From positions 248,001 through 312,000 of the forward strand of contig NZ_CP047593.1 of the NCBI RefSeq assembly GCF_009905215.1: a DNA stretch of 64,000 nt. Direction: 5' to 3'. The stretch is from Tichowtungia aerotolerans (GTDB taxonomy: Bacteria > Verrucomicrobiota > Kiritimatiellia > Kiritimatiellales > Tichowtungiaceae). The translations under genes were made by a program, and so were the position numbers. The notes below the pieces were generated by a model. It did not search any database. It saw only the letters and a list, made by a program, of their open reading frames with translations, and had not been told where the DNA came from. Positions within the stretch are counted from its first letter, which is position 1, and each line of letters opens with the position of its first letter. Below, piece by piece: positions 2,337-60,562 of the stretch.

Positions 2337-3557
2337 ATGAGAATTAATCCTTTTAAAGCATGGCGGCCGGCTCCGGAAAAAGCCGGGGACGTGGCATCGG
2401 TACCCTACGATGTGGTGAATACGAAACAGGCAGCGGCACTTGCCGAAGGTAATCCAGACTCCTTTCTGCACGTGGTACGGGCCGAAATCGACCTGCCGGA
2501 CGGCACAGACCTCTACAGCAACGCGGTCTATGCCAAAGCCAACGAAAACCTGCAGCGCATGATGGCCGACGGCACACTCATCCGCGAAGAAGCCCCCAGC
2601 TTCTACCTCTACAGCCAGCAAATGGGCGATCACCTCCAATACGGAATCGTCGCTGGATGCCATATTGAGGATTACGAAAACGGCCTGATCAAAATTCATG
2701 AAAAAACCCGCAAGATCAAAGAACAGGACCGTACCCGCTACGTGGATGAGCTCAACGCCAACACCGGCCCGGTCTTTCTGACCTGCAAGGACAGCGACAT
2801 CGTCGGCAGCCTGATGGAACAAATCGCCGCCACCAAACCGCTCTATCAATTCACCGCGACGGACGGCATCACCCACACGGTTTGGAAAATTGAGGAAACC
2901 GGAGCCTTCGCCGCGGCCTTTGCCGAAGTGCCCGCTTTTTACGTCGCCGACGGCCATCACCGTTCTGCCAGCGCCGCAAAAGTCGGCGCCATGCGCCGCG
3001 CAGCCAACCCCGACCACAACGGTTCCGAACCCTACAACTGGTTCCTCGCCGTAATCTTTCCGGAAAGTCAGCTTAAGATTCTTCCTTATAACCGTGTTGT
3101 GCTCAGTCTCGGAGACCAGACCGCCGATGAATTTTTCCAGGGTTTGGAACAATCGTTCTCGGTTGAGGCCAACGGGCAAAAAGAGCCGTCCGCCCCCGGA
3201 TCGGTCTGCATGTACACTGATGGCAAATGGTTCGAACTGACCCCCAAAGAATCCATTCCAACGGATCCGGTCGGTTCGCTGGATGTCAGTATTCTGCAGG
3301 ACCGCGTTCTGGCCCCCCTGCTCGGCATTGATGATCCGCGCGAAAGCGATGACATCGACTTTGTCGGCGGCATTCACGGCACGGCCGAACTGGAACGCCG
3401 CGTGAACGAAGGCGAAGCGGTTGTCGCTTTTTCACTCTACCCCACCACGATCGCCCAGCTGATGGACGTGGCTGATGCCGGACTGCTGATGCCGCCGAAA
3501 AGCACCTGGTTCGAGCCGAAGCTCCGCTCCGGACTGCTGGTCAATACGCTGGACTAA
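2337..3557 (+). CDS. DUF1015 family protein
   Basis: Conserved protein of unknown function (406 residues) matching DUF1015: the N-terminus INPFKAWRP followed by VPYDVVNT is typical, and VADGHHR near residue 205 is the family hallmark. It is probably cytosolic because no signal or membrane segment is visible. Start placed at the ATG encoding MRINPFKAW, since the upstream in-frame extension does not resemble the family. The gene is divergent from ftsH and followed by a clear intrinsic terminator. Family members often sit near serine or central metabolism genes, but nothing in this neighbourhood supports a specific role. A copy of the dispersed TTCCA..TGGAA palindrome lies in the coding sequence at 3135-3149, read as FFQGLEQ. 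Confidence 0.85.
   Translation: MRINPFKAWRPAPEKAGDVASVPYDVVNTKQAAALAEGNPDSFLHVVRAEIDLPDGTDLYSNAVYAKANENLQRMMADGTLIREEAPSFYLYSQQMGDHLQYGIVAGCHIEDYENGLIKIHEKTRKIKEQDRTRYVDELNANTGPVFLTCKDSDIVGSLMEQIAATKPLYQFTATDGITHTVWKIEETGAFAAAFAEVPAFYVADGHHRSASAAKVGAMRRAANPDHNGSEPYNWFLAVIFPESQLKILPYNRVVLSLGDQTADEFFQGLEQSFSVEANGQKEPSAPGSVCMYTDGKWFELTPKESIPTDPVGSLDVSILQDRVLAPLLGIDDPRESDDIDFVGGIHGTAELERRVNEGEAVVAFSLYPTTIAQLMDVADAGLLMPPKSTWFEPKLRSGLLVNTLD
3135..3149. repeat. Dispersed palindrome copy (TTCCA GGGTT TGGAA), inside DUF1015 gene
   Basis: Arms TTCCA/TGGAA around five bases; lies in coding sequence and is read as Phe-Gln-Gly-Leu-Glu. Confidence 0.7.
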
Positions 3558-22908: not shown

Positions 22909-23631
22909 ATGGAAATGAAACCTGAAAAACTGACTCAGGAACTGGAAAAGGCCTGCGGAACAAAACTGAAATCGGTGATTCTATACGGTTCAGCTGCTGC
23001 GGGCGATCACGCCGGAAAGAAATCGGACTACAACGTCCTCGTCGTTGTCGACGAGCTCGGCATTGACACCCTCAATGCACTGGCAAAACCTGCGTCCGCC
23101 TGGGCTCAGGCCGGGAACCCGGCGCCCCTGCTCTTCACCGAAGACCGGCTGACAAAAGCAACCGACGTCTTCCCGATCGAGCTGCTCGACATCACCGAAT
23201 GCCACAAAGTACTTTTCGGAAGCGATGCCGTCCAGGGATTGGAAATCAGCACAGAAAACCTGCGCCTGCAGATCGAACACGAGCTGCGCGGCGCACTGAT
23301 CCGCCTTCGTCAAAGCTATCTGCTGACACAGGGCAAAACCAAAGCAGTCGCTGAGCTGATGACTGGATCACTCTCAACCTTCCTCGTACTCTTCCGCGCC
23401 GCGCTTCGACTCTTCGAAGAAACCGTGCCGCAGAAAAAGTTCCAGGCATTGGAAAAACTGGCAGGGCACCTGACCTTTGATGCATCCGTTTTCCAGACCG
23501 TACAGGCGCTCAAAGAAGGATCAAGAAAGGCAAAAGATGTCGATGTGCCTGAGCTGTTTAACAATTATTTAAAAACCGTCGAGTGCGTCATTGACGCCGT
23601 TGACGCACACATCCAGAAGGAGAATGCATAA
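22909..23631 (+). CDS. Nucleotidyltransferase domain protein
   Basis: 240-residue protein with an N-terminal minimal nucleotidyltransferase motif: SVILYGSAAAGDHAGKKSDY, which gives Gly-Ser and a downstream Asp-x-Asn in place of the usual Asp-x-Asp (SDYNVLVVV). The missing second Asp may weaken catalysis. The C-terminal half is helical (HEPN-like length, LRLQIEHELRGALIRLRQSY). The gene lies between the TPM gene and lemA, with a stop/start overlap (TAATG) into lemA. Two copies of the dispersed palindrome lie in its coding sequence (23230-23244 and 23440-23454). Confidence 0.75.
   Translation: MEMKPEKLTQELEKACGTKLKSVILYGSAAAGDHAGKKSDYNVLVVVDELGIDTLNALAKPASAWAQAGNPAPLLFTEDRLTKATDVFPIELLDITECHKVLFGSDAVQGLEISTENLRLQIEHELRGALIRLRQSYLLTQGKTKAVAELMTGSLSTFLVLFRAALRLFEETVPQKKFQALEKLAGHLTFDASVFQTVQALKEGSRKAKDVDVPELFNNYLKTVECVIDAVDAHIQKENA
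23230..23244. repeat. Dispersed palindrome variant (GTCCA GGGAT TGGAA), in coding
   Basis: One mismatch in the left arm; read as Val-Gln-Gly-Leu-Glu inside the nucleotidyltransferase gene. Confidence 0.5.
23440..23454. repeat. Dispersed palindrome copy (TTCCA GGCAT TGGAA), in coding
   Basis: Full arms; read as Phe-Gln-Ala-Leu-Glu inside the nucleotidyltransferase gene. Confidence 0.7.
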
Positions 23632-24217: not shown

Positions 24218-24261
24218 AAAAGCCGGGTTTTCCAAGGATTGGAAAATCCGGCTTTGTTTTT
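24218..24261 (+). terminator. Intrinsic terminator of the TPM-lemA operon, built on the dispersed palindrome
   Basis: Long hairpin AAAGCCGG / CCGGCTTT whose inner stem is TTTTCCAA GGA TTGGAAAA, followed by GTTTTTCC. The palindrome core is 24230-24244. It lies 18 nt after the lemA stop. Confidence 0.88.
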
Positions 24262-27033: not shown

Positions 27034-27048
27034 TTCCAAACGTTGAAA
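27034..27048. repeat. Degenerate dispersed palindrome (TTCCAA ACG TTGAAA) over the glgB ribosome site
   Basis: In the minus-strand glgB leader its TTTGGAAGC supplies the GGAAG that sits six bases before the ATG at 27027. Confidence 0.5.
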
Positions 27049-27064
27049 CTTTTTACCCGATTTT

Positions 27065-27079
27065 TTCCAACCATTGAAA
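27065..27079. repeat. Degenerate dispersed palindrome (TTCCAA CCA TTGAAA), purF-glgB spacer
   Basis: Second of three copies in the 98-nt spacer; one mismatch in the right arm. Confidence 0.5.
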
Positions 27080-27106
27080 GTCTATTGCGTCGGCAATTGG
27101 CTGGTT

Positions 27107-27121
27107 TTCCAGGGTTTGGAA
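27107..27121. repeat. Dispersed palindrome copy (TTCCA GGGTT TGGAA), just after purF stop
   Basis: Extended arms TTTTCCA / TGGAAAA. It starts 5 nt beyond the purF stop on the minus strand, but no T tract follows, so it is not a standard intrinsic terminator. Confidence 0.7.
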
Positions 27122-29095: not shown

Positions 29096-29110
29096 TTCCA
29101 ATCTTTGGAA
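29096..29110. repeat. Dispersed palindrome copy (TTCCAA TCT TTGGAA) in divergent purF/MFS promoter region
   Basis: Embedded in a longer inverted repeat (CCGGTTTTTCCA / TGGAAAAGTCGG). It sits between two divergent starts, so it cannot be a 3' terminator of either gene. A 12-bp CCGGTCAACCGG palindrome lies next to it at 29081-29092. Confidence 0.7.
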
Positions 29111-31794: not shown

Positions 31795-32667
31795 ATGATT
31801 TTAGTATTGGGGGAAATCCTGTTTGACGAACTGCCGCAAGGCAGGCGACCGGGCGGCGCTCCGTTTAATTTCGCGCAGCACCTGCACCGGATGGGCCACG
31901 ATGTGCGTTTTGTTTCGTGCATCGGACGAGACAAATACGGAGTGGAACTGCTGAAACTGGTTCTGGAAACCGGTCTGGATTCCAACTGGCTCCAACGGCA
32001 TGACGAGGCCCTCACCGGACGTGTCGCCATTACACTCGATCCCGGCGGCGTTCCAACCTACGACATCGTGATCAATGCGGCATATGACTTTATTGATTTC
32101 GACGCCCTGCCGCCAATGTCTCCGGAAATGGTTTCCTTCGGCTCGCTCATCCAGCGCACCAAAGCCGGCCGCAAAGGGCTGCAGAATTATCTGCGGTCTC
32201 TGCCAAAGTCCACTCAGCGGTTTTACGACGTCAATTTCCGCGACGGCTGCACCTCCGGCGAGATCCTGATCCCATCCCTGCAGCAGGCCGACATCCTGAA
32301 GCTCAACGACGATGAACTTCCAATGGTTGGAAAACTGACCGGATCGGATCTCTCCGGCGACGTGCTCGTCGAATGGCTGATGCAGACATACGCCATCGAA
32401 CAGGTCGCGCTGACCCGCGGATCGAACGGCTGCGCGCTCTACCGCGAAGGCACAAAAACCGAAATGCCGTCCGGCCCGTTAACCAAAGAAGACATTGTGG
32501 ATACGGTCGGCGCCGGTGATGCTTTTGCGGCCATGCTGGCTCACTGCCTCGTCAACAACGCCGATTCCCACACCACACTGCAACAGTGCACTCGGCTGGC
32601 GGAATTTGTCTGCACCGTTCCCGGCGCCGTGCCGGACGACGATTCCATTTACAAAACACTGACTTAA
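31795..32667 (+). CDS. PfkB-family carbohydrate kinase, probable fructokinase
   Basis: 290-residue ribokinase/PfkB kinase: early glycine motif RRPGGAPFNFAQHL (about 17-30), LKLNDDELPMVGKL and the C-terminal anion-hole motif VDTVGAGDAFAAML with the catalytic Asp. Being first in an operon with sucrose-phosphate synthase and sucrose phosphorylase, it most likely phosphorylates fructose, returning fructose from sucrose phosphorolysis to the fructose 6-phosphate pool used by SPS. A perfect dispersed palindrome copy lies in the coding sequence (32318-32332, read LPMVGK). Confidence 0.88.
   Translation: MILVLGEILFDELPQGRRPGGAPFNFAQHLHRMGHDVRFVSCIGRDKYGVELLKLVLETGLDSNWLQRHDEALTGRVAITLDPGGVPTYDIVINAAYDFIDFDALPPMSPEMVSFGSLIQRTKAGRKGLQNYLRSLPKSTQRFYDVNFRDGCTSGEILIPSLQQADILKLNDDELPMVGKLTGSDLSGDVLVEWLMQTYAIEQVALTRGSNGCALYREGTKTEMPSGPLTKEDIVDTVGAGDAFAAMLAHCLVNNADSHTTLQQCTRLAEFVCTVPGAVPDDDSIYKTLT
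32318..32332. repeat. Dispersed palindrome copy (TTCCAA TGG TTGGAA), in coding
   Basis: Perfect arms; read in the frame Leu-Pro-Met-Val-Gly-Lys, a different frame from the FQxLE copies. Confidence 0.75.
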
Positions 32668-32675
32668 ATAATATC

Positions 32676-34865
32676 ATGAAAAACGACGACCTCACCATTC
32701 ACATGTTCAGCCTGCACGGACTGATTCGCGGCAGCAACCTGGAAATGGGCCGCGACGCCGACACCGGCGGACAGATTAAATATGTTCTTGAAGAAGGGCT
32801 GGAACTGTCGCGGCAGCCGGGTGTCGGCCGCGTAGACCTTTTTACCCGGCGGATCGACGACCCGACGGTTTCGGACGACTACAGCGTAGCCGTCGAACAG
32901 ATCACCGACAAATTCCGGATCATCCGCATTCCGTGCGGCGGCCGCAAATACATGCGCAAAGAACTGCTCTGGCGGCATCTGGATGAATATATCGACAAAT
33001 CGATCAAATTCATCAAAAGCGAAGGTCGACTGCCCGATCTCGTACACGGCCACTATGCCGATGCCGGATACGTCGCCATGTGGCTCGGCCGCCTCTTTGG
33101 AGTTCCGTTTATTTTCACCGGTCACTCGCTGGGACGCTCCAAAAAACGCAAACTTCTCAGCGACGGAATGACTGAAGACAAAATCGACCGCAGATACATG
33201 ATTGAGCAGCGGATCGAAACAGAAGAGGAAATTCTTCAGTCCGCTGACATGATCATCACCAGCACGCGACAGGAAGTCGACCAGCAGTACGGCGAATATC
33301 TGAGTCACCAGTTCCCGACCTTCCGCGTCATCCCGCCGGGACTCGATCTCGATAAATTCTATCCCTACTACCACAGCCAGCTCTCCGAGAAAGAACCGGA
33401 CGAAGAACTGCTGCACGCACACGCATCGATTCTGCGCGAGCTGGAGCGCTTCTTTAAAAATAAAGAAAAACCGCTCATCCTCGCACTCTGCCGGCCCGAC
33501 AAACGCAAAAACATCAACGGCCTCATCAAAGCCTATGGCAAAAGCCGAGACCTGCAGGCCATGGCCAATCTCGCCATCTACGCCGGAATCCGCAAAGACA
33601 TCACGCAGATGGAAGACAACGAACAGGGCGTCCTGACCGACATGCTTCTGCTGATGGACAAGTATGACCTCTACGGAAAAATGGCAATTCCGAAGAAACA
33701 CGATTTCCAGCTCGAAGTGCCGGAGCTCTATCGGATCGCTGCCGAAAGCCGAGGGGTGTTTGTAAACGCCGCGCTCACCGAACCGTTCGGACTGACCCTT
33801 CTCGAAGCCGCAGCAACCGGCCTGCCGCTGGTCGCCACCGATGACGGAGGTCCGCGCGACATTCTGGCAAACTGCAAAAACGGCGAGCTGGTTGAGCCGT
33901 CCGACACAGAAGCCATTGCAACCGCCATCAAAAAAATCGTCGCAGACCCCGATCTCTGGGACGAATACTCAAAGAACGGCCTGCTCAATGTGCGCGAACA
34001 CTACACCTGGGAAACACACGCCACCAACTACCTCAAAGAGATCCGCACGGTCATCAACGATAATCCGCCGGACAAAGCGGATGCATCCAAAACCCCGACG
34101 GCCATCGGCCGCCGCTTTGCCAAACTCAACCATTTCTTCATCACCGATATCGACAACACGCTCATCGGTGATGACAACAGTCGACTGGATGAATTAAAAG
34201 CCTTCCTCGAAACGCATCATAATCAACTCGGTTTCGGGATCGCCACAGGACGGACGATTGATTCCGCACTGCAGATTCTTGCCGAATACGACCTGCCGAA
34301 ACCGGACGTCATGATCACCTCCGTCGGCGCCGAAATCTATTACGGCGGTCAGCACCACCCCGACCGCGGATGGGCGGCGCATCTTTCCAACCATTGGAAC
34401 CGCGAAAAAATCCGCAGCCTGCTCGAAGACTTCGACTTCCTCGAGTATCAGGAGGAAGACACCCAGCGGCCGTTCAAGGTCAGCTACAACATGGACCCGG
34501 CAAAAGACCGTCTGACGCAGGTCCATGAACTTCTGCAGAAAAACCGATGCCGCTATACAATGATCTACTCACACGAGCAGTTCCTCGACATTCTTCCGCA
34601 CCGCGCATCCAAAGGAAAGGCCATCCGCTACATCAGCTACAAATGGAACATTCCGCTCAGCAGCATTATTGTCTCCGGCGACTCCGGCAACGACGCCGAA
34701 ATGCTGCGCGGTGACCTCAACGGAATCGTGGTCGGAAACTACAGCCATGAGCTCGACCGCTTCCGCGGCCAGCGCAAAGTGTACTTTGCCGACGCCGAAT
34801 GCGCCGGCGGAATCCTCGAAGGACTCGCACACTACAACGTCAAAGCGAAACTGGAAAACTCATGA
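32676..34865 (+). CDS. Sucrose-phosphate synthase with fused sucrose-phosphatase domain
   Basis: 729-residue two-domain enzyme. The N-terminal GT-B domain (about 1-480) has HMFSLHGLIRGSNLEMGRDA and DTGGQIKYVLE of sucrose synthases and SPS, FIFTGHSLGRSKKRKLL, and the donor site TEPFGLTLLEAAATGLPLVA. The C-terminal HAD domain (about 485-729) has FFITDIDNTLIGDD and VSGDSGNDAEMLRGD, as in sucrose-6F-phosphate phosphatase. Together it makes sucrose from UDP- or ADP-glucose and fructose 6-phosphate, typically as a compatible solute. Start 8 nt after the kinase gene; stop overlaps the next start by ATGA. Contains one palindrome copy (34386-34400). Confidence 0.94.
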   Translation: MKNDDLTIHMFSLHGLIRGSNLEMGRDADTGGQIKYVLEEGLELSRQPGVGRVDLFTRRIDDPTVSDDYSVAVEQITDKFRIIRIPCGGRKYMRKELLWRHLDEYIDKSIKFIKSEGRLPDLVHGHYADAGYVAMWLGRLFGVPFIFTGHSLGRSKKRKLLSDGMTEDKIDRRYMIEQRIETEEEILQSADMIITSTRQEVDQQYGEYLSHQFPTFRVIPPGLDLDKFYPYYHSQLSEKEPDEELLHAHASILRELERFFKNKEKPLILALCRPDKRKNINGLIKAYGKSRDLQAMANLAIYAGIRKDITQMEDNEQGVLTDMLLLMDKYDLYGKMAIPKKHDFQLEVPELYRIAAESRGVFVNAALTEPFGLTLLEAAATGLPLVATDDGGPRDILANCKNGELVEPSDTEAIATAIKKIVADPDLWDEYSKNGLLNVREHYTWETHATNYLKEIRTVINDNPPDKADASKTPTAIGRRFAKLNHFFITDIDNTLIGDDNSRLDELKAFLETHHNQLGFGIATGRTIDSALQILAEYDLPKPDVMITSVGAEIYYGGQHHPDRGWAAHLSNHWNREKIRSLLEDFDFLEYQEEDTQRPFKVSYNMDPAKDRLTQVHELLQKNRCRYTMIYSHEQFLDILPHRASKGKAIRYISYKWNIPLSSIIVSGDSGNDAEMLRGDLNGIVVGNYSHELDRFRGQRKVYFADAECAGGILEGLAHYNVKAKLENS
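34386..34400. repeat. Dispersed palindrome copy (TTCCAA CCA TTGGAA), in coding
   Basis: Perfect arms; read as Leu-Ser-Asn-His-Trp-Asn inside the HAD domain of the sucrose-phosphate synthase, a third reading frame. Confidence 0.75.
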
Positions 34866-36608: not shown

Positions 36609-36642
36609 TTCCAAGGATTGGAACTTTTTCCAATCCCTGAAA
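36609..36642. repeat. Two adjacent palindrome copies in the leader of the GLQVG-repeat gene
   Basis: 36609-36623 is a perfect TTCCAA GGA TTGGAA; 36628-36642 is a degenerate TTCCAA TCC CTGAAA. They sit 33-66 nt upstream of the start codon at 36675. The right arm of the first can also pair with the left arm of the second, allowing alternative RNA folds in the 5' leader. Confidence 0.65.
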
Positions 36643-37268: not shown

Positions 37269-37324
37269 TCCAACCCTCGGAAAAATTTTCAGGTGCAACC
37301 TGTTTCCAAGGGTTGGATTTTTTT
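37269..37324 (+). terminator. Intrinsic terminator formed by two half-diverged palindrome copies
   Basis: Left arm TCCAACCCTCGGAAA (37269-37283) pairs with TTTCCAAGGGTTGGA (37303-37317), one mismatch in 15 bp, loop 19 nt, followed directly by seven T. The right arm together with its own halves is also a TTCCAA GGG TTGGA palindrome copy. It lies 37 nt after the surface-protein stop. Confidence 0.85.
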
Positions 37325-38753: not shown

Positions 38754-38768
38754 TTCCAATGTTTGGAA
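38754..38768. repeat. Dispersed palindrome copy (TTCCAA TGT TTGGAA) between convergent genes
   Basis: Perfect arms, 9 nt after the ablB stop and 27 nt from the stop of the opposing gene. No T tract follows, so any 3'-end function would not be standard termination. Confidence 0.75.
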
Positions 38769-42700: not shown

Positions 42701-44919
42701 CAGTAGAGCAGCGTATCTCCGCTCTCTGTGCTCAGCACCTCCAGCATGGTCGGAGCACCAGAGGCGGAGACTTTGGTTCGACGCTCAATCGTAATAATTC
42801 CCCGGTCACTAACCGGCAGGCGGGTCATATAGGCACCGCCGTCGTTCAACACATCATAACTGATGTTCAGCGTCCCGCCCGATTCCGTCAGAGACGATCC
42901 GGCAGAATTGGTACTAAACCCGCCAGAAGACGCCTTGATCGCCGTCCATGCCGACGTATCCAAGCTTTCATCGTTAAAATCGTCATCCAGCAGAACATCA
43001 TTCCGGAAGGTCGCAGCAACCGTTTTGGGCGCATCCATCGTCAGCGTAACGTTTTCTGTACCGGTGGCATCGCCGCCCCATCCGGCAAACCAGCTGCCGG
43101 CATCAGGAGTCGCAATCAAGGTTTGCTCAGAGTCCGGCGCATAAAAACCACTGGAAAGATTCACCGATCCGTTCCCAATTTCAGTGATGTCCAGCCACTG
43201 GCCGATGATCTCCCAGTTCCACGTAATCGACGACTCCTGCGTGATCACCACATCGACCGTATTGGTCGTCCCCGAAGATGGAACAGATCCCGTTCCCGTC
43301 CATCCGGTGCATTGATAAAGCGTCCCGTTGTTGGTCATCTGATGCCCCACCGAAAGGGTCAGCGATGCGTCTTGCTCATGAACAAAGCTGCCGACGGCCG
43401 GATCGGGAGTTCCCTGCTCAGACGCAACACTCAGCAGGAAAAGACTAACCGGATCATCCTGCAATACTTTAAACGAATCAAACTGCTTGGTGTGCCCATA
43501 ATATGCACCCGAAGCACCGCCCCGCAGATATACATTGCTCGTCCCCGCAGACATCGCCGCTCCCGAGACCAGCACCGGATCACTTCCATTCAACGAGTAG
43601 GTTCCGTATCCGGTCGACGGGTCATAGGTAATCACCTCATCAAACCACTCATCCCATACGCCGGTTGCCCGCGCATCATTAAATCCGCCGAACCCAAACC
43701 GTGAAACCCCGAATGCATCATAGTTGTAATAGCCCCACGTCAGCAGCGTCTCACCGCTTTCGCTCATCAGGTTCTCAGTCATGTAAGCCATCGCATACTT
43801 GGCATGCACCTGTGTACGGCGCTCAAGAACAATCTGCCCCTGATCATCCACCGAAAGGTTCGCACTGCGATAAGCCCCGCCGTTGTCGATGGCGCTGGAA
43901 TAAAGCCGCATCGCCCCGTTCGTTTCACTCACCGTCAATCCGGCCAAAGATTCATTAAATTCTGTATAGGACGTGGTTTTAATTGCCGTCCATTTGGAAG
44001 CATCCAGAGTTCCATCCTCAAAATCATCATCCAGCAGAACGTTCCAGTGCCACGTGATGGACGAATCCTCGGACAGCGTAAAAACCACCTCGTTGGTGGT
44101 TCCGGAGGCCGGAACCGATCCCGTGCCCGTCCAGCCGAGACATTTCTCCCCATCGGCCGTGACGCTCTCCACCGAGCAGGTCACAACCGTTCCCACATCA
44201 TACGCACTGTTTCCAATGCCTGGAACCGGCGAGCCGTAGGCCGAGCTGACCGTCAGCAGTTTGCGGTCGGTTTGCGTAACAGTGAAATCATTAATTGCTT
44301 TATAGTCAGTACTGCTCCCTTCAGCGTATGCGCTTCCTCGCAAATATAAATTGGTTGTTCCGGAGGGAAGCGGAATACCCGTAACCGTTGCAGTCCCTTT
44401 TGCATTTGAATAAGAGCCCTGTCCGGTGACCGGGTCATAGGTTATAATCTCATTAACCCAAGTGGTATCCCATGTTACAGCCACCAAAGACGGATCATCA
44501 AAACCGCCGAATCCATCACGAACAGTGTTGCCATCGTTGTAGTCATGGTAGCCCCAGCGTAACAAAACGGTTCCATCCTCTGCGACAATTTCATCTGGCC
44601 TCGAAACCAAAGAGCCACTGCCTCTGGAAATATAGATACTGCGCGTGACAACAATTTCACCTTTACCATCAACCGGAAGCAGTTTGGATTTATAGGCCCC
44701 CGCCGCGTTTTGGATAAACAGATACCCTGCGGTCTCAGTCACGGTTCCTCCCGCTGAGGAGTCATCAAAACTTGTGTGTCCTGTGCCTGTGATCAGCGTC
44801 CACTTCGACGAGTCAATCGAAGCATCTTCAAAATCATCGGTTAACAGTACGGTATCCGCCTGTGCAATCCATACAACTAAACAAAACAGTCCAATCCATG
44901 CCTGCAACAATCGTCTCAT
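39784..44919 (-). CDS. Giant secreted multimodular protein: three N-terminal modules, InlB-like repeats, four DUF1566 domains
   Basis: 1711 residues. Signal peptide MRRLLQAWIGLFCLVVWIAQ. Three similar lectin-like modules begin with DDFEDxxxDxSxW (near residues 24, 294 and 642), each with FGGFxD, ITYDPxTGxGxYS and an NLYLRG-type strand. Between them are GWTGTGSVPASGTTN strands and divergent InlB B-repeat units (ATPAAGWEFIGWDGDA). A fibronectin-like segment (about 985-1075) leads to four tandem DUF1566/Lcl C-terminal domains (starts near 1076, 1236, 1403 and 1556) with GQTQ/GQTN, RFTDxGDGTVTDxLTGLMW and WRLPNVREMxSL. AGGAGGG precedes ATG 44919. Likely exported to the surface for glycan or matrix binding; the ligand is unknown. 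Confidence 0.85.
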   Translation of the reverse strand: MRRLLQAWIGLFCLVVWIAQADTVLLTDDFEDASIDSSKWTLITGTGHTSFDDSSAGGTVTETAGYLFIQNAAGAYKSKLLPVDGKGEIVVTRSIYISRGSGSLVSRPDEIVAEDGTVLLRWGYHDYNDGNTVRDGFGGFDDPSLVAVTWDTTWVNEIITYDPVTGQGSYSNAKGTATVTGIPLPSGTTNLYLRGSAYAEGSSTDYKAINDFTVTQTDRKLLTVSSAYGSPVPGIGNSAYDVGTVVTCSVESVTADGEKCLGWTGTGSVPASGTTNEVVFTLSEDSSITWHWNVLLDDDFEDGTLDASKWTAIKTTSYTEFNESLAGLTVSETNGAMRLYSSAIDNGGAYRSANLSVDDQGQIVLERRTQVHAKYAMAYMTENLMSESGETLLTWGYYNYDAFGVSRFGFGGFNDARATGVWDEWFDEVITYDPSTGYGTYSLNGSDPVLVSGAAMSAGTSNVYLRGGASGAYYGHTKQFDSFKVLQDDPVSLFLLSVASEQGTPDPAVGSFVHEQDASLTLSVGHQMTNNGTLYQCTGWTGTGSVPSSGTTNTVDVVITQESSITWNWEIIGQWLDITEIGNGSVNLSSGFYAPDSEQTLIATPDAGSWFAGWGGDATGTENVTLTMDAPKTVAATFRNDVLLDDDFNDESLDTSAWTAIKASSGGFSTNSAGSSLTESGGTLNISYDVLNDGGAYMTRLPVSDRGIITIERRTKVSASGAPTMLEVLSTESGDTLLYWMYTSAGFGYGASLAPAVWGEWFDETITYDPMTGEGTYSINGGTPVSIATADEMPANTTHVLLKGGSAGDTTGGTKQFDSFTVSQGTDSSRAALTIGSALGTPSPAAGYEVYDSGTIITCTVDSAYFDGQTHYICSGWSGSGSVPASGTTNEVLVTLEEDSTLGWTWAEVDHYLELTVDGGGAINLSSDFYAADSVQTLVATPAAGWEFIGWDGDAIGIGDAVVTMSEPKSITARFVSLLPTITNMTVAQVEGTRTVAISFETPADESLMAMVEVFHNGTNLNADAFSGAGMVQGGTNQTIVWDAGADWNLNVDELTFRLLLDNGLPSYTPYEGGIVNIPQTGQTQGMYDEEDGNVRPGLTWPSPRFTDNGDETITDNLTGLMWAKSASSAYWHTALQNCDGLTLAGHDDWRLPNVREMRSLCNYGLHDPAIESSVFSSLPYNDWYWTSTTLPNYSFKYAVSLAAGTTYAHLTYNYGTYYSNYYLPVRTAMKGLADVPRTGQTQGTTYAGEDGDLQAGAAWPSPRFTDHGDGTVTDHLTGLMWSRQSSGGTVMRGFALQTAENSALAGYDDWRIPSVNELESLYNYDTTAYMPAGHPFVGMQTSSSARYWTSTLYSKDSNYGFAVSFYDGEVELAQSAYYLTCRGGVATLESVPSAAAAQVALAQSGQTNSYVSGDDGASRIGVESTAPRFTGGGDFVYDELTGFTWWAVGLGPMQWSDAATAANQNNWRLPNVREVLSLIDYGQSGTALPEGHPFTGIQSSAKLWTSTSAGGFTGGSTGWQVDLESGKTLEASKTEYAYYLVVSTNVYESAPLQVAVTGQTNSYHMADDGAVQSGAQETGARFSDNGNGTVNDNRTGLMWLGSMRACGAMTWAEAVAYCENLNFCGYADWRLPNVREMESLVDYSQRGDQTVLPQSHPFSNATISGSSYFWTSTTYHPDSGRALAISFYNGAIQDGSKTSTVNVWPVRGGE

Positions 44920-46312: not shown

Positions 46313-46353
46313 AAAATAAAAAGGGATTTTTCCAAGCCCTGGAAAAATCCCTT
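46313..46353 (-). terminator. Intrinsic terminator of argG, built on the dispersed palindrome
   Basis: Stem AAGGGATTTTTCC / GGAAAAATCCCTT (13 bp, perfect) with a 7-nt loop; on the minus strand it is followed by TTTTTATTTTTTG. The palindrome core TTCCAA GCC CTGGAA is at 46330-46344. It lies 22 nt after the argG stop. Confidence 0.9.
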
Positions 46354-49983: not shown

Positions 49984-50751
49984 TCACTTCAGATAAACAG
50001 TTCGGAAACTGAGGTGACCGTCCCGATACTCATAAATTCGAAATGAACCCTGGCGACCAAACCGTCCGGAAAGCGGCGGTGCTACAAACAGCGGCACCTC
50101 GCCAAGCCGATGAAATTCATCGCGGTGGAAATGCCCGGCAAGCACCGCCTTCACATCATATCGATTCAGCAGATCCACCCATTGGGGGCCAACGTCCCTG
50201 CGGCCCCAGCCCGCATGAGCCTTTCCGTTATAAAAGCTGTCCACCGACGGGGTGTGATGAAACACCAGCGTTTCCTGCTCCTCCAGCAAAAGTTCCAGCT
50301 CAACCAGAGGATCATACTCCGGAATCACGACCTCTCCGGTCAGCGGCTCCGTATATACAAAAATGCAGCGAATCCCGTTGTATTCTGCTGACGTAATCAG
50401 CGGACCGAAAGCATTCGTGTACGCCGCCGTCGTTTCAGCGATGTTCTCCTCCAGAATATCGTGATTACCCGGCAGGAAATGTACCGGGACCTTCAGCGGC
50501 TCAAGGGTTTGGAAAACACGCTCCACCGTTTTGGAATCCGTGATGCAGTCATTCACGATATCGCCGGTCAGAACAACAAACGCGATATCCATCGGCAGTG
50601 CGGTGATCTGCTCTACGGCCGCGCGCCCGCGCTCAAAATGGTCATCCTGCCCGAAATGTGTATCCGTGAGCTGCACAAAGAAGAACGGCTCGCCGGCGAA
50701 CACCCCAAGCGCCGCGAACAGAACAAACAGTATAGCTCCTGCCCTTTTCAT
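49984..50751 (-). CDS. Secreted metallophosphoesterase
   Basis: 255 residues. Signal peptide MKRAGAILFVLFAALGVFAG, then the calcineurin-like motifs QLTDTHFG, VVLTGDIVND, FLPGNHDIL, VFHHTPSVD and VLAGHFHRDEFH, giving a complete dimetal site. Substrate unknown; such exported enzymes act on nucleotides or phosphodiesters. Start ATG 50751 begins 8 nt after the miaA stop, so it is the last gene of the DksA-like / lspA / miaA operon. A degenerate palindrome half-copy (50500-50514) is in the coding region (VFQTLEP). Confidence 0.88.
   Translation of the reverse strand: MKRAGAILFVLFAALGVFAGEPFFFVQLTDTHFGQDDHFERGRAAVEQITALPMDIAFVVLTGDIVNDCITDSKTVERVFQTLEPLKVPVHFLPGNHDILEENIAETTAAYTNAFGPLITSAEYNGIRCIFVYTEPLTGEVVIPEYDPLVELELLLEEQETLVFHHTPSVDSFYNGKAHAGWGRRDVGPQWVDLLNRYDVKAVLAGHFHRDEFHRLGEVPLFVAPPLSGRFGRQGSFRIYEYRDGHLSFRTVYLK
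50500..50514. repeat. Degenerate palindrome half-copy (CTCAAGGGTTTGGAA), in phosphoesterase gene
   Basis: Right arm intact, left arm CTCAA; read on the minus strand as Phe-Gln-Thr-Leu-Glu. Confidence 0.45.
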
Positions 50752-50758
50752 GCTTTGG

Positions 50759-51688
50759 TTATACGCCCAGCAACGGCACCGCTCCATCTTTTTCCCAAAC
50801 CCTGAAAACTTCCTCCGCCAGTTTTTCCAGAGTTTGGAATGTTCGGGTTTCAACCCACTCAACATTGAGCTGGTGGCGGAACCAGGTCATCTGGCGCTTG
50901 GCGAGCTGGCGGGTTCGAATGATGGTCTTCTCTCTGGCCTGTGCTTCGGTCATTTCGTTTCTCAAAACGGCAAAAGCTTCTGCATAGCCGATGGCGTGCT
51001 GCGCCGTAGAGGAAAGTTCAAGGGGAATCAGGCCCCGCGCCTCTTCGATGAGGCCTTCGGCGTACATTTGATCGACCCGCTCTGCGATTCGTTTGTGCAA
51101 TACGTCACGCTCGACATGCAGCCCGACGACGGCAGGAAGCTCTTTTGTCCAGCAGGCTGAGTCTGCACCCTTCTTTTTTCCAAGGGTTGGAACTGTTTCG
51201 AGCAAACGAACCAAACGTCTTGGATTCTCTTTATCCGAAAGGGCCTGATAGGCCTCGGGCGCAGCGTTCTGCGCTTCGGCCTGAAGTTCGGCAAGGCTCA
51301 TTTTTTCGGCGCGCGCCCGGAGTTTTTCGTCGGCGGCGGGCAGATCGTCGAGGCCTGCGAGCAGGCATTTTACATAGAGCCCCGTCCCTCCTGCCACCAT
51401 CGCAGGTTTTTCCAAACATTGGGAAAACGCCGGTTTGACGGCATTGAGCCAGTCGCCAACACTGAAAGATTCGGTGGGATCAGCGAGATCAATTCCATAA
51501 TACGGAACCACGCCGCGCTCGGCGGCGGGCGGCTTGGCGGTTCCGATGTCCATACCGCGATAGATGTTCATGGAATCCGCAGAAACGAGGGCTGCATCGG
51601 TCTGTTCGGCCAGGCGCTGCGCCACAGAGCTTTTGCCGGAAGCGGTCGGACCGACAAGTACGAACGCGCTGGGACGATCAGCTGTCAT
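50759..51688 (-). CDS. miaA: tRNA dimethylallyltransferase
   Basis: 309 residues; adds the isopentenyl group to adenosine 37 of tRNAs reading UNN codons. P-loop FVLVGPTASGKSSVAQRLAE (about 9-28), SADSMNIYRGMDIGTAKP, ATG-rich MVAGGTGLYVKCLLAGL, and RTRQLAKRQMTWFRH. Overlaps lspA by 11 bases (51678-51688). Unusual in carrying three dispersed-palindrome copies within one gene (50825-50839, 51178-51192, 51410-51425) plus a further degenerate one near 50790-50808. The reads are TFQTLEKL, VPTLGKK and FSQCLEKP. Confidence 0.95.
   Translation of the reverse strand: MTADRPSAFVLVGPTASGKSSVAQRLAEQTDAALVSADSMNIYRGMDIGTAKPPAAERGVVPYYGIDLADPTESFSVGDWLNAVKPAFSQCLEKPAMVAGGTGLYVKCLLAGLDDLPAADEKLRARAEKMSLAELQAEAQNAAPEAYQALSDKENPRRLVRLLETVPTLGKKKGADSACWTKELPAVVGLHVERDVLHKRIAERVDQMYAEGLIEEARGLIPLELSSTAQHAIGYAEAFAVLRNEMTEAQAREKTIIRTRQLAKRQMTWFRHQLNVEWVETRTFQTLEKLAEEVFRVWEKDGAVPLLGV
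50825..50839. repeat. Dispersed palindrome copy (TTCCA GAGTT TGGAA), in miaA
   Basis: Read on the minus strand as Phe-Gln-Thr-Leu-Glu. Confidence 0.7.
51178..51192. repeat. Dispersed palindrome copy (TTCCAA GGG TTGGAA), in miaA
   Basis: Perfect arms; read in another frame as Val-Pro-Thr-Leu-Gly. Confidence 0.75.
51410..51425. repeat. Dispersed palindrome variant with 1-base insertion, in miaA
   Basis: TTCCAAACATTGGGAA; read as Ser-Gln-Cys-Leu-Glu-Lys. Confidence 0.55.
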
Positions 51689-57010: not shown

Positions 57011-58016
57011 AGTACGGCGCAAACTCCGGCGGCAGATCCCGCCCGCAAACTCCCGTGATTTCATCCGAGAAATCGCGGGAGTTTAAAGTATTCCAGTAAA
57101 GTACCGTTTGGCCGTCCAGCATTCCTGCGCGCAGATCGTGCAGCAGCGCCGCCGCCGTCTTGCCGGTGTAGGTGTTTTCCAAAACAACATTTTCCAGGTT
57201 TTGGAAAACGTCCACAGCCCCACGGCCTTCCGGCGTCGCAATGCCATATCCGTCGCCGAAAAACTCATCACGGATTGTAATGTCCTCCAAAGCAACCCGC
57301 TCCTGAATCTCCAGCTTTTCGCACAGTTCATCGCACAACGCTTTGATATGTGATTCGTCGCGAAACGCTCGTTCCACCACACGAATCGCTTCAATGCGCG
57401 GCTTGAAATCTGTCAGAAGAAACCCGACCTGCAGTCCGGCCACCGTGCCGCCGGTCCCCATTGGAACATAAATGACATCCGGCTGCATTTGCGCCGCCAG
57501 TTCCAGCGCCGCATTCACAAACCCAAGCGCACCAACCGCATTGGTTCCACCGGCCGGAATAATGGTCGGCTCAACTCCGTCGCGCTCTTTGCAGCGCTCA
57601 ACAATTTGGCGCGTCGCCTCCGGGAACTCGTTAAAATCAGAACAGAGATGCAGTTCGGCACCGACCGCCTGCCCCATGCGCAGGTTTTTGCGGACATGAT
57701 CCGTCGGCTCCTGCGGAGCAAGAATGGAGATGGCATTCAGCCCGAGCTGCCGGCAACAGATCGCCGTCGCCAGCGCGTGGTTCGACCCCGCCGCTCCATA
57801 CGTGATGACTGTCTTGCGCCCCTGATCCAGCGCTTCTCCCAGCAAAAACTCCAGCTTGCGAACCTTGTTGCCGCCATAAACCGGACCGCTGAGATCATCG
57901 CGTTTCATAAACAACCGATCATGCCCAACCGTTTTTTCAATGACTGGAAGTTCCACCACCGGCGTCGGCAGCTCCGCCAGTGCCGCTCTCGAAAACCGGC
58001 TGAAGAGATCATTCAT
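57003..58016 (-). CDS. 1-aminocyclopropane-1-carboxylate deaminase / D-cysteine desulfhydrase family
   Basis: 337-residue fold-type II PLP enzyme. PVYGGNKVRKLEFLLGEALD contains the PLP lysine (about residue 53); TYGAAGSNHALATAICCRQL follows, and PMGTGGTVAGLQVGFLL is the phosphate-binding Gly loop. Length fits. Members degrade ACC, D-cysteine or related amino acids, and the substrate cannot be read from sequence. The C-terminal end overlaps the purM stop by 8 bases and holds a strong hairpin (57048-57083). One palindrome copy (57192-57206) is in the coding region (VFQNLENV). Confidence 0.85.
   Translation of the reverse strand: MNDLFSRFSRAALAELPTPVVELPVIEKTVGHDRLFMKRDDLSGPVYGGNKVRKLEFLLGEALDQGRKTVITYGAAGSNHALATAICCRQLGLNAISILAPQEPTDHVRKNLRMGQAVGAELHLCSDFNEFPEATRQIVERCKERDGVEPTIIPAGGTNAVGALGFVNAALELAAQMQPDVIYVPMGTGGTVAGLQVGFLLTDFKPRIEAIRVVERAFRDESHIKALCDELCEKLEIQERVALEDITIRDEFFGDGYGIATPEGRGAVDVFQNLENVVLENTYTGKTAAALLHDLRAGMLDGQTVLYWNTLNSRDFSDEITGVCGRDLPPEFAPYFS
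57048..57083 (+). terminator. Hairpin downstream of purM, inside the convergent gene
   Basis: 15-bp arms AACTCCCGTGATTTC / GAAATCGCGGGAGTT with one G-T wobble and a 6-nt loop, 38 nt beyond the purM stop, within the last codons of the deaminase. A weak TTTAAAG follows on the plus strand. It may terminate purM, but it is coding on the other strand. Confidence 0.5.
57192..57206. repeat. Dispersed palindrome copy (TTCCA GGTTT TGGAA), in deaminase gene
   Basis: Read on the minus strand as Phe-Gln-Asn-Leu-Glu. Confidence 0.7.
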
Positions 58017-59283: not shown

Positions 59284-59298
59284 TTCCAAACATTGGCA
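59284..59298. repeat. Dispersed palindrome variant (TTCCAA ACA TTGGCA) beside the corA/fabF terminator
   Basis: Last two bases of the right arm changed. Lies between convergent genes, next to a separate terminator. Confidence 0.6.
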
Positions 59299-59317
59299 GG
59301 CAACTGCGTTGCGGCAC

Positions 59318-60562
59318 CTATGCTTTCTTGAAGCAGAGCGTAGCGTTGTGTCCACCAAAGCCCAGCGAGTTGGACAGTGCAACGTTGATATCCACTTTCC
59401 GCGCTTCATTGGGGACGTAGTCGAGATCGCAGTCCGGGTCGGGCGTGGTGTAGTTGATGGTCGGCGGAATGATTCCGTCGCGAATGGCCAGTGCACAGAT
59501 AGCGGTTTCCACGCCGCCGGCGGCGCCGAGCATATGGCCGGTCATCCCTTTGGTTGAGCTGACAGCCACTTTGTAAGCCAGTTCTTCGCCAAGCGCTTTT
59601 TTGATAGCGAGCGTTTCGCCTTTGTCATTGAGCGGGGTGCTGGTTCCGTGAGCGTTGATGTAGTCGATGTCTGCAGCGGTGAGGCCGGCGTCTTCGTAGG
59701 CAAGGCGCATGCCGCGGGCGGCCTGATCGGCTGCGGCGTCGGGAGCGGTGATGTGGTAGGCATCGCCGGTGCGGCCGTATCCAGCCAGTTCACAGTAAAT
59801 TTTTGCACCGCGCTTGATGGCGTGTTCTTTTTCTTCAAGGACAACAATTCCGGAGCCTTCGGACATCACAAAGCCGTCGCGGTCCAGATCAAACGGACGG
59901 GAGGCGCCTTTCGGGTCGTCGTTGCGGCGGCTGGTGGCGCGCAGGGCGGCAAATCCGCCGACTCCGAGCATGGCAACGGATGCTTCCGCGCCACCGGCGA
60001 CCATAACATCGGCATCGCCGTACTGGATGATACGCATGGCTTCGCCAATAGAGTGGGTTCCGGAAGCACAGGCGCTGGTTACACAGAAATTGGGGCCTTT
60101 AAAGCCGTATTTGATCGACACATATCCGGAAAGGATGTTGGTGATCATCTGCGGGATGAGCTGGGGAGAGATGCGGCGAGGTCCACCTTCAATGGCACGG
60201 ATACATTGGTTCTGCATAAACTGCATGCCGCCGATCCCGGAACTGGCAATCACGCCGACGCGCTCAAGATCCGTTTCTTCCGGATTCAGTCCGGAATCTT
60301 CGACGGCCATAATCGAGGCGGCCAGTCCGTAGACGGAAAAGGGATCCATTTTCCGGAGTTCTTTTTTATCAATGAATTGTTCCGTGTCTAAATCGCGGAT
60401 TTCCCCAGCGATTTGAACAGGATACTGGTCGATATCAGGCATGGACTGAACCCGGTCAATTCCGGACACTCCGTTTTTAATGCCGTCCCAAAACTTGTCG
60501 ATTCCACTCGCAACCGGCGAGACCACTCCCAGTCCGGTTATAACAACAGTACGACCACTCAT
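59318..60562 (-). CDS. fabF: Beta-ketoacyl-ACP synthase II
   Basis: 414 residues; condenses malonyl-ACP with acyl-ACP in fatty-acid elongation. Catalytic Cys in [20 protein letters not shown], His in [18 protein letters not shown], Lys/His in [20 protein letters not shown], and the family C-terminus [20 protein letters not shown] 60562 with GGAGG upstream. Third gene of the fabG-acpP-fabF operon. Confidence 0.97.

Follow-up and report, generated by a model that had tools for sequence, protein, structure and literature searches.

Rickettsia palindromic elements are inserted segments, and the uptake sequences of Neisseria and Haemophilus are short words, single and directional, which occur by the hundreds in and between genes and are scarce in foreign DNA; we know of no helical phasing between such words. 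Bacterial nucleoid proteins are for the most part regarded as binding DNA that is only loosely defined and, to our knowledge, sequence data rarely give direct evidence of in-phase looping or wrapping along a chromosome. HIP1 of cyanobacteria (GCGATCGC) is one short palindrome with a very high genome copy number that varies between relatives; a methyltransferase/mismatch-repair model has been proposed for it, its function is debated, and the text of the source mentions neither spacing nor periodicity (PMC4390886). Lrp/AsnC proteins bind 15-bp palindromes lying on one helix face at two or three turns, with the DNA wrapped around octamers (PMC2995911, PMC10201364), while NrdR boxes are paired palindromes requiring a whole number of helical turns (PMC12051234).

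The palindrome considered here, TTCCAA-N3-TTGGAA (TTCCAANNNTTGGAA), was analyzed in a 64-kb window (bases 248001–312000) of the single-contig, 3.88 Mb genome of Tichowtungia aerotolerans (class Kiritimatiellia; G000 below). The window contained seven exact copies versus 0.02 expected, and 30 matches with no more than two mismatches versus 4.2 expected. The whole genome carried 567 exact copies, while the reversed control pattern was absent; the palindrome total, genes included, is about a thousand. A sample of 1.64 Mb, about 42% of the genome, consisting of 79 evenly placed 20-kb stretches and the window, contained 227 exact and 296 one-mismatch copies, compared with 0 and 4, respectively, in a second-order Markov simulation. 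The center was 3 bp long in these 227 copies, and every other gap length from 0 to 15 gave three copies at most. The middle base was C or G in 94–98% of the exact copies. The core is bordered by runs of T and A, the best form being TTCCAANSNTTGGAA. Most of the tolerated mismatches replaced A by G at positions 6 and 5 or C by T at position 3. An outer stem of at least 6 bp was present at just 7 of 521 sites, and terminators were thus rejected as the general identity of the sites. No description of the exact motif was found in the literature searched. Two other repeats were observed: GCAACTGCGTTGCGGCAC, also short, directly adjoins palindrome copies at two widely separated genome positions, one of them in the window (59284–59318), and the sampled 42% of G000 contains at least five copies of an IS3-type insertion sequence that look identical.

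The gene miaA (IPP transferase, PF01715; 50759–51688, minus strand) carries four copies of the palindrome. One is exact (TTCCAAGGGTTGGAA, 51178–51192, read as VPTLGK), two have one mismatch (TTCCAGAGTTTGGAA, 50825–50839, read as FQTLE, and TTCCAAACATTGGGA, 51410–51424, read as SQCLE), and the fourth, 32 bp from the FQTLE copy, is decayed, with three mismatches (about 50793–50807); several relatives have an exact palindrome at this last position. The closest named relatives of this gene come from metagenome-assembled genomes of Kiritimatiellales and Pontiellaceae; identity was 66–74% for the best nine. Other coding copies in the window were found in a DUF1015 gene (3135–3149, one mismatch, FQGLE), a putative nucleotidyltransferase gene without a Pfam match (23440–23454, one mismatch, FQALE), a PfkB gene (32318–32332, exact, LPMVGK), a sucrose-phosphate synthase gene (34385–34399, exact, LSNHWN), a large minus-strand ORF (44211–44225, one mismatch, VPGIGN), and the gene of a PLP-dependent enzyme (57192–57206, one mismatch, FQNLE). 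The sequence-only reading of this DNA had described a palindrome used inside genes in all three frames, with three clear copies and a degenerate fourth in miaA, and both statements were borne out. Its list of FQxLE genes held for DUF1015, the nucleotidyltransferase, miaA, and the PLP-dependent enzyme; the phosphoesterase FQTLE that it also named (about 50503–50517, located by eye) is a degenerate copy with more than two mismatches, outside the two-mismatch limit.

Exact copies were also present between genes at 29096–29110, at 38754–38768 (called intergenic), and at 24230–24244, where the palindrome forms the tip of a longer terminator-like hairpin. One-mismatch copies lay at 37304–37318 (called intergenic), at 59284–59298 (intergenic), and at 46330–46344, in a convergent gap, the last with a terminator-like outer stem of 9 bp. 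Three one-mismatch copies starting at 27034, 27065, and 27107 make up an intergenic phased array (27034–27121) with steps of 31 and 42 bp. At 36609–36642, an exact intergenic copy is followed 19 bp further by a two-mismatch copy, a rare out-of-phase neighbor.

Neighboring sites are phased with the helical repeat, a feature that takes computation to detect and that the sequence-only reading had not described. The distances between sites were 22, 31, 42, 52–53, 63, 73, 84, 94–95, 105, and 115 bp and onward, and the best period was 10.45–10.5 bp, with R = 0.85 for 137 pairs and R = 0.90 for the 54 pairs within genes; background three-mismatch words, used as the control, gave R = 0.11. Because pairs within arrays are partly dependent, a test with one pair per gene was used; 40 of 41 such pairs lay within 2 bp of whole turns, versus 42% by chance. 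Pair distances in genes were not tied to codon phase. The phasing weakens with distance, is still visible at 400–600 bp (R = 0.44, p = 2e-4), and persists to about 600 bp before fading. Arrays of two to seven sites occur in other genera of the class, mostly with steps of 31/32 bp, that is, three turns; the spacers of these arrays are unrelated, except in genome G057. Phased arrays of G057 have common spacers and are often situated at contig ends, as if whole arrays had been duplicated. A five-site phased array was also observed just upstream of mnmG (G000:C1:1364038-1364250), close to a switch in GC skew, the probable site of the replication origin.

It is difficult to account for such phasing unless a protein reads the double-stranded DNA and makes contact with its neighbors on the same face. 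Owing to this phasing, the best explanation would be a cooperative, sequence-specific, chromosome-organizing protein acting on one face of the helix, and the palindromes are probably its docking sites. Each palindrome would be bound by a symmetric, probably dimeric, protein, which would occupy the double helix at hundreds of places. Bound units would contact neighbors on the same face, with close packing at two, three, or four turns; over longer distances, up to roughly half a kilobase, contact would involve small loops or wrapping. The main role of such a protein would be to organize the chromosome, in the manner of nucleoid proteins, rather than to regulate particular promoters. We infer the binding, its symmetry and cooperativity, and the architectural role from the sequence patterns described here.

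The location of the sites relative to genes bears on this role. Counting sites with up to one mismatch, short convergent gaps were the densest (4.4 per kb), followed by short co-directional gaps at 2.2 per kb; short divergent gaps, with a single site, had the lowest density of all gaps (0.6 per kb). The density in genes was close to one site per 4 kb (347 sites across about 1.42 Mb), and the coding copies were spread evenly over gene length. The chromosome carries many sites throughout its length with no preference for divergent promoter gaps, a pattern in keeping with nucleoid-associated protein sites. No trend of site density from origin to terminus was apparent by eye in G000. Arrays of genome G104 often fill gaps within gene runs (for example, hypD-hypE, rfb genes, and the end of trpF).

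The alternative that survives best is a large transcription-factor regulon, Lrp/AsnC- or NrdR-like, which the sites would serve as ordinary operators, with the coding copies as spill-over. Its appeal lies in geometry: 15-bp palindromes at two or three turns, as found here, are typical of Lrp/AsnC, whose arrays are the best architectural match, and paired palindromes at whole-turn spacing are typical of NrdR. In addition, the lrp gene of G000 has an exact site 54 bp upstream, and exact or degraded sites occur near this place in several congeners; in the genomes with the highest counts, no site was found in the region upstream of lrp. However, the sites reside in gene bodies and in the gaps of gene runs rather than at promoters, and their stringent copies number in the hundreds. 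NrdR acts at a few ribonucleotide reductase promoters. The DNA-binding parts of both proteins are nearly alike in genomes with 3 and 1177 sites. A promoter regulon is therefore not favored, given the even spread over genes and the low density in divergent gaps, and we regard it as unlikely; the placement would rather suit an architectural role.

We failed to find a protein that tracks site number among the candidate recognizers: Lrp, NrdR, MraZ, AbrB-type proteins, and one XRE protein. Lrp is encoded by a near-universal single gene, with a very similar DNA-binding helix in G015 (3 sites) and G018 (1177 sites). The zinc ribbon of NrdR is identical in G014, G015, and G018 (334, 3, and 1177 sites, respectively). 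MraZ was found in high- and low-count genomes alike, AbrB-fold proteins were missing from high-count genomes, including G000 and G010, and a coiled-coil XRE protein adjoining a site pair was absent from the complete high-count genomes G003 and G010.

The distribution of the palindrome is class-restricted and patchy. Counts in 58 relatives ranged from 0 to 1339, with more than tenfold variation inside one genus, and none of the 241 genomes of the phylum exceeded four copies outside the class. In the low-count genomes G015 and G016, neither a substitute palindrome "dialect" nor decayed copies above background were found. Three genomes with near-zero counts (G050, G054, G056) have phased pairs beside restriction-modification or nucleotidyltransferase genes of the defense type; the phased pairs of low-count distant genomes may be recent imports, as if from high-count relatives. 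Among the matches listed for viral contigs, almost all were single. Another member of the class, G053, shows an excess of palindromes of its own, CGCACC-N5-GGTGCG and TGGGGT-N4-ACCCCA, perhaps a distinct repeat. Within G000, a stretch of 126 kb (G000:C1:94645-220624) contained no exact sites (P about 1e-8); sulfatase genes and genes of large exported proteins were sampled there, so this stretch looks like accessory DNA.

This region lacking exact sites, together with the hundreds of copies in genes and gaps and the few copies that are part of terminator-like stems, would be expected if the palindrome were a DNA uptake signal marking self DNA and spread by recombination. However, an uptake signal has no need for the helical phase seen between the G000 copies, and the unit here is a complete palindrome with a fixed center, not a directional word; this explanation is improbable.

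The preference for short non-promoter gaps and the common spacers of some G057 arrays, as if these had been copied whole, could also indicate a mobile palindromic repeat of the Rickettsia-element or REP/BIME type, inserted in genes and gaps. Copies within conserved proteins argue otherwise. In seven such proteins, compared with solved homologues, the sites brought no extra residues, save for a 3-residue gap beside one site of HemL, whose other site was ungapped. The fumarase/aspartase-type lyase (two sites 32 bp apart inside one aligned block), RsmD, RsmA, CysS, thymidine phosphorylase, and MiaA (at VPTLGK) were all ungapped at their sites. Relatives of MiaA retain the C-terminal site pair; its first site encodes FQxLE in some of them and, shifted by 1 nt, FPxLGK in others, while the protein alignment stays free of gaps. 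The flanks of the G000 copies are largely unrelated, with 66 mostly short matches among 520 sites. One MiaA loop is rich in indels among close relatives, as a mobile repeat would predict, so indels may contribute locally. The alignments indicate that the coding copies arose by substitution, not by insertion, and an insertion element as the source of these copies is already largely refuted by the flanks and the homologues; a mobile repeat is accordingly very improbable. The sequence-only reading had proposed aligning the proteins with homologues and had left a choice between insertion into ORFs and selection for the site; selection stands and insertion does not, and its analogy with Rickettsia elements, which likewise place a palindrome inside reading frames, fails.

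As in HIP1, over-representation in G000 is very strong genome-wide, in coding and non-coding DNA alike. Extreme iteration and strong variation between relatives would also suit a palindrome with no function of its own, generated by a DNA methyltransferase together with biased mismatch repair, and part of the core, CCA-N5-TGG, belongs to a known type of restriction site. However, mutation bias acts site by site and cannot phase distant pairs. The present palindrome differs from HIP1 in its 15 bp, 3-bp center, strict 10.5-bp phasing, and tight arrays. We see only a slender chance for this explanation.

Regarding the coding copies, the DNA, not the peptide, is under selection, as the sequence-only reading had supposed. 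In the 1.64 Mb sample, 148 of the 227 exact copies lay wholly within genes, predicted by a simple home-made method, and shuffling synonymous codons within genes left a mean of 3.85. The exact copies were distributed among the reading frames as 63, 52, and 33, the FQxLE frame being the commonest, as had been noted from the window; good tolerance of FQxLE in helices may be the source of this bias. FQxLE was raised more than 20-fold: it occurred 155 times in the sampled proteome, versus 0 to 6 times for each of 23 other orders of the same residues. It was encoded exactly by TTC CAA NNN TTG GAA in 63 of 155 cases, while codon usage predicts 0.56%; therefore, the DNA motif drives the peptide. Conservation of FQxLE in distant homologues whose DNA lacks the palindrome had been named as grounds for a protein constraint, and distant MiaA genes have neither the sites nor FQxLE. 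Selection for a conserved FQxLE peptide, for which the prevalence of its frame could be cited, deserves almost no credence, with three frames in use, such specific codons, and the codon-shuffling result ruling out a protein constraint.

We return to the chromosome-organizing protein as the preferred explanation. The sites would originate by point mutation and be retained through joint action with in-phase neighbors, so that coding sequences would have accepted FQxLE-, xPxxGK-, and SNxWN-type peptides. Three points weigh against it: the more than tenfold variation within a genus is odd for an essential chromosome organizer, sites could be dense in short convergent and co-directional gaps simply because they are tolerated there, and none of the candidate recognizers considered above tracks site number.

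The sequence of T. aerotolerans records the 10.5-bp helical repeat across hundreds of base pairs, including within genes, and the same holds in many species. The phased sites offer a route to a new architectural protein and a natural measure of looping. They also show clearly that selection acting on DNA can rewrite protein sequences, and FQxLE-type motifs in Kiritimatiellia should be annotated with caution, as they are DNA-driven. We tentatively suggest, as a quite conceivable outcome, that members of this class may have sequence-coded chromatin, in which a protein would wrap or loop the DNA every few kilobases, at phased sites of 15 bp, with the amino-acid sequences of core enzymes reshaped in the process.
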